Source of the DNA: Ectopseudomonas composti
Lineage (GTDB): Bacteria; Pseudomonadota; Gammaproteobacteria; Pseudomonadales; Pseudomonadaceae
DNA length: 64,000 nt
Assembly: GCF_001567565.1 (NCBI RefSeq)
Contig: NZ_LSSW01000028.1
Span: 248,001-312,000, forward strand
Direction of reading: 5' to 3'
The position numbers and the translations under genes are program-made. The notes under the pieces are model-generated. The model was not told the origin of the DNA, searched no databases, and saw nothing but the letters and a program-made list of their open reading frames with translations. Within the stretch, counting starts at the first letter, position 1. Each line of letters opens with the position of its first letter. Positions 37,443-38,962 of the stretch are shown piece by piece.

Positions 37443-37730
37443 ATGCGTAAAGACAAGAAGCAGGTGATTGGCGAAGAAATCAGCGATGACTCGGTCAAGC
37501 TGTTCCTTGCGGTGGAACCGGCGGATGCCACGCCGCCTTCGCTGCATAAGCTGGTCAAGGCTTATCGCGGTCTGCGTGTCGATGACTTCGAGCGTTTTGT
37601 GGGTTTCTTCAAAGCCGCAGGCTACGACCTCGCGGCTACTGATGCGCAGGGCCATGACTTTATCGCGTTGATTCAGGATCAGCGCAATGCCGAGCCTTAT
37701 ATCGAAGTGATCAAGGCCGCTCGTGGCTGA
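37443..37730 (+). CDS. PA4642-family small protein, function unknown
   Basis: 95 aa, soluble, acidic N-terminal half; starts MRKDKKQVIGEEISDD. It matches the small conserved pseudomonad protein I know as PA4642 (recognised from memory). No membrane segment, signal or catalytic motif is visible. GGGAGCGGGCG is a weak ribosome binding region before ATG 37443. It is followed by a terminator and then the inverted repeat element. Confidence 0.8.
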   Translation: MRKDKKQVIGEEISDDSVKLFLAVEPADATPPSLHKLVKAYRGLRVDDFERFVGFFKAAGYDLAATDAQGHDFIALIQDQRNAEPYIEVIKAARG

Positions 37731-37745
37731 CCTTCGCCGTATCGA

Positions 37746-37780
37746 AAATGCCTGCTTCCTTGCGGAGGCGGGCATTTTTT
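37746..37780 (+). terminator. Terminator after the PA4642-family gene
   Basis: Stem AATGCCTGC..CC/GG..GCGGGCATT with CTTGCG loop region, followed by six T. It is 16 bases after the stop codon. Confidence 0.85.
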
Positions 37781-37814
37781 ATGGTTCTTCGCGTTCTCGT
37801 GGGGACGATACGCT

Positions 37815-38110
37815 TGACACCGGACTGGCAATTACGTGTTAGCTGTCGATGACCTGGCACTCTCCATTAGCGCACGGCCTGGTCTGATGGGTTTCGCCCC
37901 TTACGGGCGACTTACTTTCTTTGCTTGTGCAAAGAAAGTAAGCAAAGAAACACACCCCTGCATACGGCCCCGGCTGCGCCGGGGTTCCCTCCTTCCATAA
38001 CCGTTCCAGGGGCACGCTGCGAAGGGCCATCCCTGGCTCATCGCAGCTCTCGCGACATCCATGTCGCTCAACCCCTTCCACGGTGATTCCACTCGGCCTC
38101 CTGAAGGGGG
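37815..38110 (+). repeat. Inverted structured repeat, left copy
   Basis: Non-coding. In order: TGACACCGGACTGGCAA (37815-37831), a GTTTCGCCCCTTACGGGCG block (ending 37909), a perfect 14 bp hairpin CTTACTTTCTTTGC with TTGT loop (37911-37942), hairpin CCCCGGC-TGC-GCCGGGG (37968-37984), AAGGGCCATCCCTG near 38020, hairpin GCGACAT-CC-ATGTCGC (38052-38067) and CCACTCGGCCTCCTGAAGGGG in two halves (38089-38109). Short open frames here are not genes. I recognise this type of sequence as a repeat common in Pseudomonas genomes but cannot name it. Confidence 0.85.
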
Positions 38111-38203
38111 ACTTGGGCGTCGTCTGTGAGATCGCACTTCAAGAGCAAAAGCTAAACGCTGCCGACTTTGGTCTTCCGGAGATGTCGCAAGCTCGCGACC
38201 TGG

Positions 38204-38501
38204 TCCCCTTCAGCAGGCCGAGTGGAGGTGTTGCGTAGGGGGCGAGCCGCATGGATGCGGCGAGAGGCTTAAAGGGCAGGGACGGCCCTTGTAAGCCGGC
38301 CCCCGGAGCAGCACTGGAACGAGGGAAGTTTCGCGTAGCGAAACCCGGATGCCGGGGTGCCCTTCTTTGGCACACCTTTCTTGGGCAAGCAAGAAAGGTG
38401 TGGCGCCCGTAAGGGGCGCAACCCAAACGCTCAGTAAACACGGTGACGGATAGTGCTAAGTCAGTAAGCGATCCGCACACAAACTTGCCAGTCCGGTGTC
38501 A
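38204..38501 (-). repeat. Inverted structured repeat, right copy
   Basis: Same block order as the left copy, on the opposite strand: CTCGGCCTGCTGAAGGGG (38205-38222), hairpin GCCGCAT-GG-ATGCGGC (38246-38261), the AAGGGCCGTCCCTG block, hairpin GTTTCGC-GTA-GCGAAAC (38328-38344), 12 bp hairpin ACACCTTTCTTG/CAAGAAAGGTGT (38372-38401), the GCGCCCCTTACGGGCG block (38404-38425) and TGACACCGGACTGGCAA (38485-38501). Stems are kept but with different bases from the left copy. The ~94 bases between the copies (38111-38203) show nothing recognisable. A further 10 bp inverted pair (37783-37792 and 38524-38533) lies outside. Confidence 0.85.
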
Positions 38502-38591
38502 GCCCGCACTTTCCCCAAAATATGCGAAGAACCTTTTTTATGGCCTGTCATCCGTGGCGGCCACCTTTGCGCATACGGAATGCAGGGCAAT

Positions 38592-38619
38592 AAAAAACCG
38601 GCCTCTAGGGCCGGTTTTT
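38592..38619 (-). terminator. Terminator after rpsT
   Basis: Stem AAAAACCGGCC/GGCCGGTTTTT around a TCTAG-type loop, 17 bases beyond the rpsT stop on the - strand; symmetrical, so it may also stop + strand reads. Confidence 0.9.
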
Positions 38620-38635
38620 CAAGAACCTGTCGCGA

Positions 38636-38914
38636 TTAGGCGGCAGCAGCTTCGCCCAGCGCCTTGATGTGCGCGTTCAGGCGGCTCTTGTGACGAGCGG
38701 CTTTGTTCTTGTGGATGATGCCTTTGTCAGCCATGCGGTCGATGACCGGAACAGCTGCGGTGTAAGCGGTTTTGGCAAGATCGAGATCTTTGGCAGCAAT
38801 AGCCTTGACCACGTTCTTGATGTAGGTACGAACCATCGAGCGCAGGCTGGCGTTATGGCTACGGCGCTTCTCAGCCTGTTTGGCGCGTTTTTTGGCAGAA
38901 GGTGAGTTGGCCAC
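38636..38914 (-). CDS. rpsT: 30S ribosomal protein S20
   Basis: 92 aa from the GTG at 38914 (GAGGAG seven bases upstream), giving [27 protein letters not shown] in pieces as in all S20 proteins. It binds 16S rRNA. Rich in Lys, Arg and Ala as expected. The GTG start is consistent with the translational autoregulation through a non-ATG start known for E. coli S20 (UUG there). A good promoter lies upstream at 38963-38991. Confidence 0.97.
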
Positions 38915-38962
38915 CGTCAAGCTCCTCGAAAACTGGGGGGTTTACACAAATTAAGGCCGCGA

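Follow-up and report, generated by a model that had tools for sequence, protein, structure and literature searches.

TwoAYGGAY (Rfam RF01731) is an orphan RNA of unknown function, in which a helix encloses two hairpins with AYGGAY-type loops. Rfam gives its type as Cis-reg, the discovery table lists it as RNA 'y', cis-reg 'n' and switch 'n' (PMC2864571), and a 2014 paper proposed that it binds CsrA (PMC4333381). The Pseudomonas Rsm consensus is described as 5'-CANGGANG-3', optimally A/U-flanked (PMC6849547). Several GGA hairpins matching the RsmA/CsrA consensus are found in the sponge RNAs RsmX/RsmY/RsmZ and CsrB/CsrC. In REPINs an inverted doublet, with a spacing given as 71 or 110 bp, is the unit propagated in intergenic DNA (PMC3116915). 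Among the titles and abstract openings that we searched, mostly outside subscription journals, none joins a TwoAYGGAY-related RNA with transposition or with pairing.

In a window of 64,000 nucleotides from Ectopseudomonas composti (the whole stretch of DNA that was analysed), positions 37783-38533 are one complete element of 751 bp, which is a non-autonomous transposable element with ISL3-type ends. The best explanation, to which we give a probability of roughly 0.6, is that it is mobilised by ISL3 and carries mirrored TwoAYGGAY-related modules that are predicted to bind RsmA/CsrA. In the anatomy listed here and in the mobilisation we have high confidence.

37443 to 37730, plus strand: upstream gene, PA4642 family protein (NF038106, 130.6 bits)
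37744 to 37779, plus strand: intrinsic terminator of the upstream gene, with the element inserted in its T-tract (terminator scan; empty site in genomes G012 and G008)
37775 to 37782, no strand: left target-site duplication TTTTTTAT (flank comparison)
37783 to 37831, plus strand: left end, terminal repeat GGTTCTTCGC and subterminal TGACACCGGACTGGCAA at 37815-37831 (same terminal motif in an ISL3-family IS)
37888 to 38109, minus strand: module A, outward-reading, RNA strand minus (cross-genome match limits; covariation)
37894 to 37910, minus strand: module A hairpin P6 (alignment)
37911 to 37942, minus strand: module A hairpin P5 (sequence and alignment)
37968 to 38101, minus strand: module A P1-P4 domain, TwoAYGGAY-like fold (module alignment; RF01731 35.3 bits at 38010-38074, threshold 43)
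38028 to 38035, minus strand: module A predicted RsmA/CsrA site CANGGANG in hairpin P3 (motif count)
38056 to 38063, minus strand: module A predicted RsmA/CsrA site ACATGGATGT in hairpin P2 (motif count)
38110 to 38204, no strand: spacer between the modules (alignment across elements)
38205 to 38425, plus strand: module B, outward-reading, RNA strand plus (cross-genome match limits; alignment)
38213 to 38344, plus strand: module B P1-P4 domain (covariation; RF01731 30.9 bits at 38239-38303, threshold 43)
38250 to 38257, plus strand: module B predicted RsmA/CsrA site in P2 (motif count)
38277 to 38284, plus strand: module B predicted RsmA/CsrA site in P3 (motif count)
38371 to 38402, plus strand: module B hairpin P5 (sequence)
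38403 to 38419, plus strand: module B hairpin P6 (sequence and alignment)
38485 to 38533, minus strand: right end, subterminal TGACACCGGACTGGCAA at 38485-38501 and terminal repeat (end comparison)
38534 to 38541, no strand: right target-site duplication TTTTTTAT (flank comparison)
38636 to 38920, minus strand: downstream convergent ORF, which from its sequence we take to be rpsT, ribosomal protein S20

The two halves of the element are inverted copies, with an opposite-strand self-match of 687 bp at 65% identity; its E value of 2.4e-26 rules out chance similarity. Each half consists of an end region of about 105 bp and a core module of about 222 bp, with a 95-bp spacer common to both; the limits of the core come from matches in other genomes, many of which, among the matches listed, span only about 107-327 or 421-640 of the query. 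The original prediction described two inverted copies with the same block order, and indeed the halves align end to end and the outer coordinates that it gave, 37783 and 38533, are exact. The perfect 17-bp inverted repeat that it placed at the ends does exist (37815-37831 and 38485-38501) but is subterminal, the true ends being GGTTCTTCGC at 37783 and its complement finishing at 38533. We also recovered its three hairpins with different stems in the two halves, at 37911-37942 and 38371-38402, at 37968-37984 (CCCCGGC/GCCGGGG) and 38328-38344 (GTTTCGC/GCGAAAC), and at 38052-38067 (GCGACAT/ATGTCGC) and 38246-38261 (GCCGCAT/ATGCGGC); all three belong to the module structure. Among elements the spacer sequence is shared and its length clusters at 95 and 101 bp; its consensus contains an inverted repeat GGCGTC..GACGCC, seen by eye, that is degenerate in the window copy. 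None of the nine internal ORFs of at least 40 aa (50-113 aa) matched Pfam, leaving the element without a transposase of its own; a coding origin was rejected on this ground and because stems and loops are what is conserved.

The element sits in the T-tract of the terminator of the PA4642-family gene and is flanked by the perfect 8-bp duplication TTTTTTAT, in line with the earlier suggestion to look for target duplications at its flanks. Genomes G012 and G008 provide the empty site, with the same upstream gene, the terminator and a single T-tract, and no element. When the rpsT neighbourhoods of seven relatives were inspected, two shared the upstream gene and the other five had a different upstream sequence. 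A scan of 37600-38700 for sigma-70-like promoters found none.

A transposase elsewhere that shares the ends had also been proposed as something to look for, and we found an ISL3-family IS in related genomes. This IS, present in G201 and G223, is 1305 bp long, shares the terminal motif GGTTCTTCGC (loci L226 and L227) and starts with GGTTCTTCGCA/GGTTCATCGCG. Perfect duplications (CTTTTTTT, GGATTTTT, TAAAAAAT) surround three of the four full copies read; the fourth has the flanks CTTTTTTA/TAAAAAAG, and a degenerate copy in G099 is without duplication. The G201 copy encodes an ISL3 transposase of 400 aa (L227; NF033550, 333.9 bits). The window element thus has the terminal motif GGTTCTTCGC, the 8-bp duplication and the T-rich target of ISL3 IS/MITEs, as in the 1305-bp IS, but it lacks a transposase and carries about 700 bp of RNA-structured cargo, and its subterminal TGACACCGGACTGGCAA is only loosely like TTGACAGTCAGGG of the IS. 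With IS-matching ends, an 8-bp duplication, an empty site and no transposase of its own, we class it as ISL3-type and non-autonomous.

All 18 carrier genomes searched for PF01610 contain at least one match, and five of them (G099, G201, G223, G291, G309) contain more than one. No ISL3 transposase was found in the source genome, whose sole PF01610 match falls in the tail of a DesA desaturase (NF049918, 598 bits; NF049919, 112.6 bits), so that its copies of the element are stranded or moved earlier. Similar weak matches in other carriers are presumably the same DesA gene. This desaturase family, seen at L057 (G000:C10:29711-30061) and in the 18 carriers, has a tail domain common to ISL3 transposases (NF049919), and PF01610 alone therefore overcounts ISL3 elements. 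At two of the seven loci in G015 (L257, L259) there is an ISL3-like end, GGTTCTTCACG, with a different subterminal sequence; at L259 it adjoins T/A-runs.

The subterminal motif was found in 17 of 298 genomes of the genus, the reversed control pattern giving at most one match per genome and strand among the matches listed. A scan of species genomes returned 81 stretches, and of the 80 listed, 77 are from Pseudomonas and three from gammaproteobacterial MAG contigs. The Pseudomonas carriers include composti, guguanensis, indica, mendocina, alcaliphila, oleovorans and others; these cross-genome matches bear out the statement, in the original prediction, that similar sequences are scattered in Pseudomonas. 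We collected 91 distinct elements with both subterminal motifs, of which 90 were testable and 65 had recognisable ends on both sides. Their two flanking 8-mers differ at no position in 15 cases, at one in 10, two in 16, three in 9 and at least four in 15, some of the 65 looking like orthologous insertions in related species and hence not all being independent; at six control offsets (n = 65), 0 or 1 difference never occurred, and 2 differences were seen at two offsets, in a single element each. A flanking 8-mer contains an A4/T4 run in 63 of the 65. A GC stem followed by a T-run abuts an end in 45 of 65; among 3000 sampled T-run positions the count is 351, and among 19698 arbitrary window positions it is 41. 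Intrinsic terminators are thus the usual place of insertion. At 20 of the 65 sites the terminator scan found none, the window copy among them; its terminator was missed there because the stem holds G-T pairs, and it is found by the other scan. Judged from these comparisons of sequences, mobility of the element is well supported. We found no phage match of the whole element and, with module A only as the query, no match in E. coli genomes. Spread by plasmids was rejected, as only fragments of the P5/P6 region were found, in 10 records of Caballeronia, Paraburkholderia, Variovorax, Chitinibacter and Ilyobacter.

On the outward-reading strand, both modules fold into a long helix enclosing two hairpins. 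In an alignment of 45 modules, 36 of 43 consensus pairs show compensated two-sided changes. The P1-P4 domain was then counted in 30 modules against the named structure, 15 of the 45 rows having been left out beforehand, among them two G024 rows (L052) with a deviating P2-P3 part. In these modules 91.6% of the cells are paired, compared with 74.5% after shuffling and 37.0-48.6% in slid versions, over which the structure is favoured since it was derived from the same rows. Two-sided compensatory change was seen in 32 of 41 pairs (shuffled 19.7, sd 2.0) and in 208 cells (shuffled 62.3), with 66 further pair types (shuffled 52.2) and a covariation score of 0.490 (shuffled 0.197); each of these values, the paired share included, was reached in 0 of 500 shuffles. 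The signal is not only the A/B split, because 32 of 41 pairs still covary in the 21 rows outside the B clade (other lineages included), compared with 10 of 41 in the nine B rows. G-U occupies 65 cells on the RNA strand and A-C only 21, which indicates the folding strand: both modules read outward from the spacer. Selection on structure, which the original prediction derived from stems kept despite base changes and for which it proposed a covariation test on aligned copies, is strongly supported, with covariation above every shuffled and slid control and a strand bias.

A full-length transcript is predicted to pair arm against arm (-428 and -445 kcal/mol) in preference to local folds (-332 and -327 kcal/mol), so that the local fold of the RNA would depend on folding during transcription or on shorter transcripts. 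Hairpins P5 and P6 are highly conserved and more widespread than the rest of the module; they have no role in the RsmA/CsrA explanation.

We then considered modules A and B as a pair. A single branch of the module tree divides the partners of 66 among 82 distinct inverted pairs; it was picked as the best of all, a choice that works in its favour. Random labels with the same clade size separated 39.8 pairs on average and 54 at most in 2000 draws. No inverted pair has both members in the 66-module clade, and 12 of the 16 exceptions to the split come from G015, G020, G024 and G030. For the most part, A and B are therefore passed on together as one unit. The A-B difference is 0.291 within the same element and 0.293 between elements, which gives no sign of gene conversion. 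Adjacent modules are oriented > < in 145 cases, > > in 13, < < in 9 and < > in 4, the loci overlapping and the counts thus not being independent. Between A and B of one element, 38% of paired and 14% of unpaired columns differ, compared with 13% and 6% between A modules and 12% and 9% between B modules. Of the pair cells in which A and B differ, 489 are compensated on both sides and 302 are changed on one side with both partners paired; in the other 364, at least one partner is unpaired. The element observed here measures 751 bp, whereas the doublets of REPINs are given with 71- or 110-bp spacing (PMC3116915). REPINs are also made of RAYT-associated REP hairpins, whereas our element has ISL3 ends and duplications, and its partners A and B are distinct lineages. 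We also observed modules in direct tandem repeats or longer arrays at L271 (G010), L255-L256 (G015) and L329 (G375). At L005, L006, L010, L150 and L197, a segment like GCAGTAACAGCCGCAGGCTGGCCCGAAGGGTGAGCGCAGCGAATC replaces the tip of P5 or P4-P5, as if hairpin cassettes had been exchanged.

The loops of the module carry the RsmA/CsrA consensus. On the RNA strand of 164 modules, many of them close relatives, CANGGANG occurs at least twice in 148, once in 12 and never in 4, while the opposite strand has it in one of the 164. This amounts to 1.89 per module, as against 0.12 in dinucleotide shuffles; in 131 of the 148 modules the first and second motifs are spaced by 28 nt. GGA occurs 8.3 times per module on the RNA strand and 0.35 times on the other. 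In the window, all four hairpins have GGA in the loop within the CANGGANG consensus. Outside the family, 31 of 33 module matches, from nine genomes, were considered (two cut-off matches were left out): at least one CANGGANG is present in 31 of 31 and at least two in 16 of 31, with differing stems, but as the model behind these distant matches already contains the loops, their conservation there is partly circular and supportive only. The source genome has one CsrA-family gene. We consider it slightly more probable than an even chance that the cargo is a mirrored pair of RsmA/CsrA-binding RNAs, binding being predicted from the loops. The original prediction knew of no function for the element, which we sharpen to the hypothesis of RsmA/CsrA binding. 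Like RsmX/RsmY/RsmZ and CsrB/CsrC, the cargo has several GGA hairpins; it differs in being mobile, multicopy, mirrored and located at terminators, and an Rfam scan of the window found no match to these sponge families.

The window modules reach 35.3 and 30.9 bits against TwoAYGGAY, below the gathering score of 43, and we therefore describe them as relatives of this RNA, not as members. In the source genome there are 13 matches in eight of the ten loci scanned (30.9-44.6 bits), of which one (44.6 bits) is above threshold. Within the scanned loci, at least one module is above threshold in G360, G492, G189, G379, G175 and G608, matches are sub-threshold only in G500, and none was found in G410 and G535. 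The helix with two AYGGAY-type hairpins is common to both; here, by contrast, it forms a mirrored pair, is extended by P4-P6 and lies within a mobile element. A match to a known IS or Rfam family had been named as what would speak against the original prediction; the element does relate to the ISL3 IS family, and to TwoAYGGAY only below threshold. This double kinship leaves the structural claim standing and helps to identify the element.

A search of 299 genomes of the phylum with a covariance model of the Pseudomonas modules gave matches in 21: 7 belong to the genus, 5 to other genera in the family, 2 to the order and 7 to the class, with none beyond the class among the matches listed. At 47 loci from 17 genomes, searched with this model and partly chosen for close matches, we counted by eye 23 cases of modules with a neighbour at less than 600 bp: 18 are divergent, 4 point in the same direction and 1 is convergent. 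None of the 18 divergent pairs scores 9 or 10 of 10 for GGTTCTTCGC on both sides; two score 9 on one side, and L282 is testable on one side only. Three of four control elements with ISL3 ends score 9 or 10 on both sides. Since it occurs without ISL3 ends, the mirrored pair is probably older than those ends.

An alternative, which we find rather unlikely, is a purely selfish element whose hairpins act in DNA, in a single-stranded intermediate or by binding a transposase or host factor, the RNA being irrelevant. The inverted pair would then be a persistent unit as in REPINs (PMC3116915). The A/B pairs do travel as units (66 of 82 separated, shuffled mean 39.8 and maximum 54), and G-T is also tolerated in single-stranded DNA. 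However, the motif in the loops is one that a protein recognises in RNA, and it lies on one strand; the common fold also persists in genomes whose pairs show no ISL3-type ends. Moreover, ISL3 ends, 8-bp duplications and the DDE-type transposase family require no hairpin. That the module is a trans-acting or cis-regulatory RNA with a partner other than CsrA, its GGA loops being coincidental, is unlikely in our opinion: the P1 to P6 fold goes far beyond what a pair of CsrA hairpins would require, and P5-like hairpins turn up in records of Caballeronia and Ilyobacter that give no convincing match to the P1-P4 model, but the consensus is present in both loops of 148 of 164 modules at regular spacing. 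Very improbable is a transcription insulator, tolerated or selected at terminators, whose inverted hairpin-rich cargo would end or block read-through from both convergent genes; the position at terminators, the convergent neighbours in the window, the long-range duplex strongly predicted for either strand and the Tail-repeat-Tail bias reported for other Pseudomonas repeats (PMC2718517) agree with it, but it predicts neither the conserved GGA loops nor the compensated differences between A and B, whose effect is to weaken the long duplex (paired 38%, unpaired 14%).

According to the preferred explanation, an ISL3-mobilised element with RsmA/CsrA-binding modules, an ISL3-family transposase acting in trans would recognise the GGTTCTTCGC-type ends and place the element in T-tracts, in most cases those of intrinsic terminators, with a duplication of 8 bp; the comparison shows the pattern, from which we infer the act of transposition. 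As the T-tract is duplicated, the original terminator would stay whole at one end and the host gene would be spared. Read-through or local transcription may then yield the element RNA, and insertion at a terminator would allow low read-through transcription without damage to genes. Owing to the inversion, transcripts from the two flanks would, by their sequence, each carry one module in the folding sense. The folded module would present two CANGGANG hairpin loops, mostly 28 nt apart, and further GGA motifs; given that these loops match the RsmA/CsrA recognition element, it most likely binds RsmA/CsrA. The module would then either titrate RsmA/CsrA, as a sponge does, or mark the 3' end of the host transcript for it. 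We propose the sponge-like outcome with reserve. Slightly more tentative is the wider picture of a transposable element family with mirror-paired RsmA/CsrA decoys as cargo, working in either direction of transcription and placed in host 3' ends. The literature offers a parallel in sRNAs reported between dual terminators.

TwoAYGGAY thereby gains a partner protein that can be tested, RsmA/CsrA, and a genomic setting of mirrored pairs, which in at least one lineage are mobile and target terminators. If the prediction is true, mobile DNA would seed decoys for a post-transcriptional master regulator across Pseudomonas; if the decoy reading is true, each new copy would alter how much RsmA/CsrA is free or bring a host transcript under RsmA/CsrA control. 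One of the intergenic repeat families R26/R178/R200 (PMC2718517) or of the P. putida families (PMC2267715), for which sizes are given, may be this element family.

Other RNAs and hairpins were observed along the way. The Rfam terC RNA motif (59.6 bits) lies at 3292-3348 of L006, near another source-genome copy of the element, and sRNA-Xcc1 (67.9 bits) at 20-103 of L320, about 650 bp from a module pair in G379. On a plasmid of Ilyobacter polytropus (Fusobacteriota; L345, about 1490-1550), a hairpin is nearly identical to P5 (TTACTTTCTTTG..CAAAGAAAGTAAC), and the megaplasmid record has a P5-like hairpin in seven places. The P1-P4 model found nothing on the fetched L345 stretch, and model R1 gave no convincing match on four plasmid records (best 12.1 bits, E 0.044). 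On Caballeronia plasmids (L346, L347), P5/P6-like hairpins overlap matches to the Bp1_684 sRNA (33.6-39.2 bits, threshold 44). These sub-threshold matches lie in divergent inverted pairs, possibly an analogous paired element in Burkholderiaceae.
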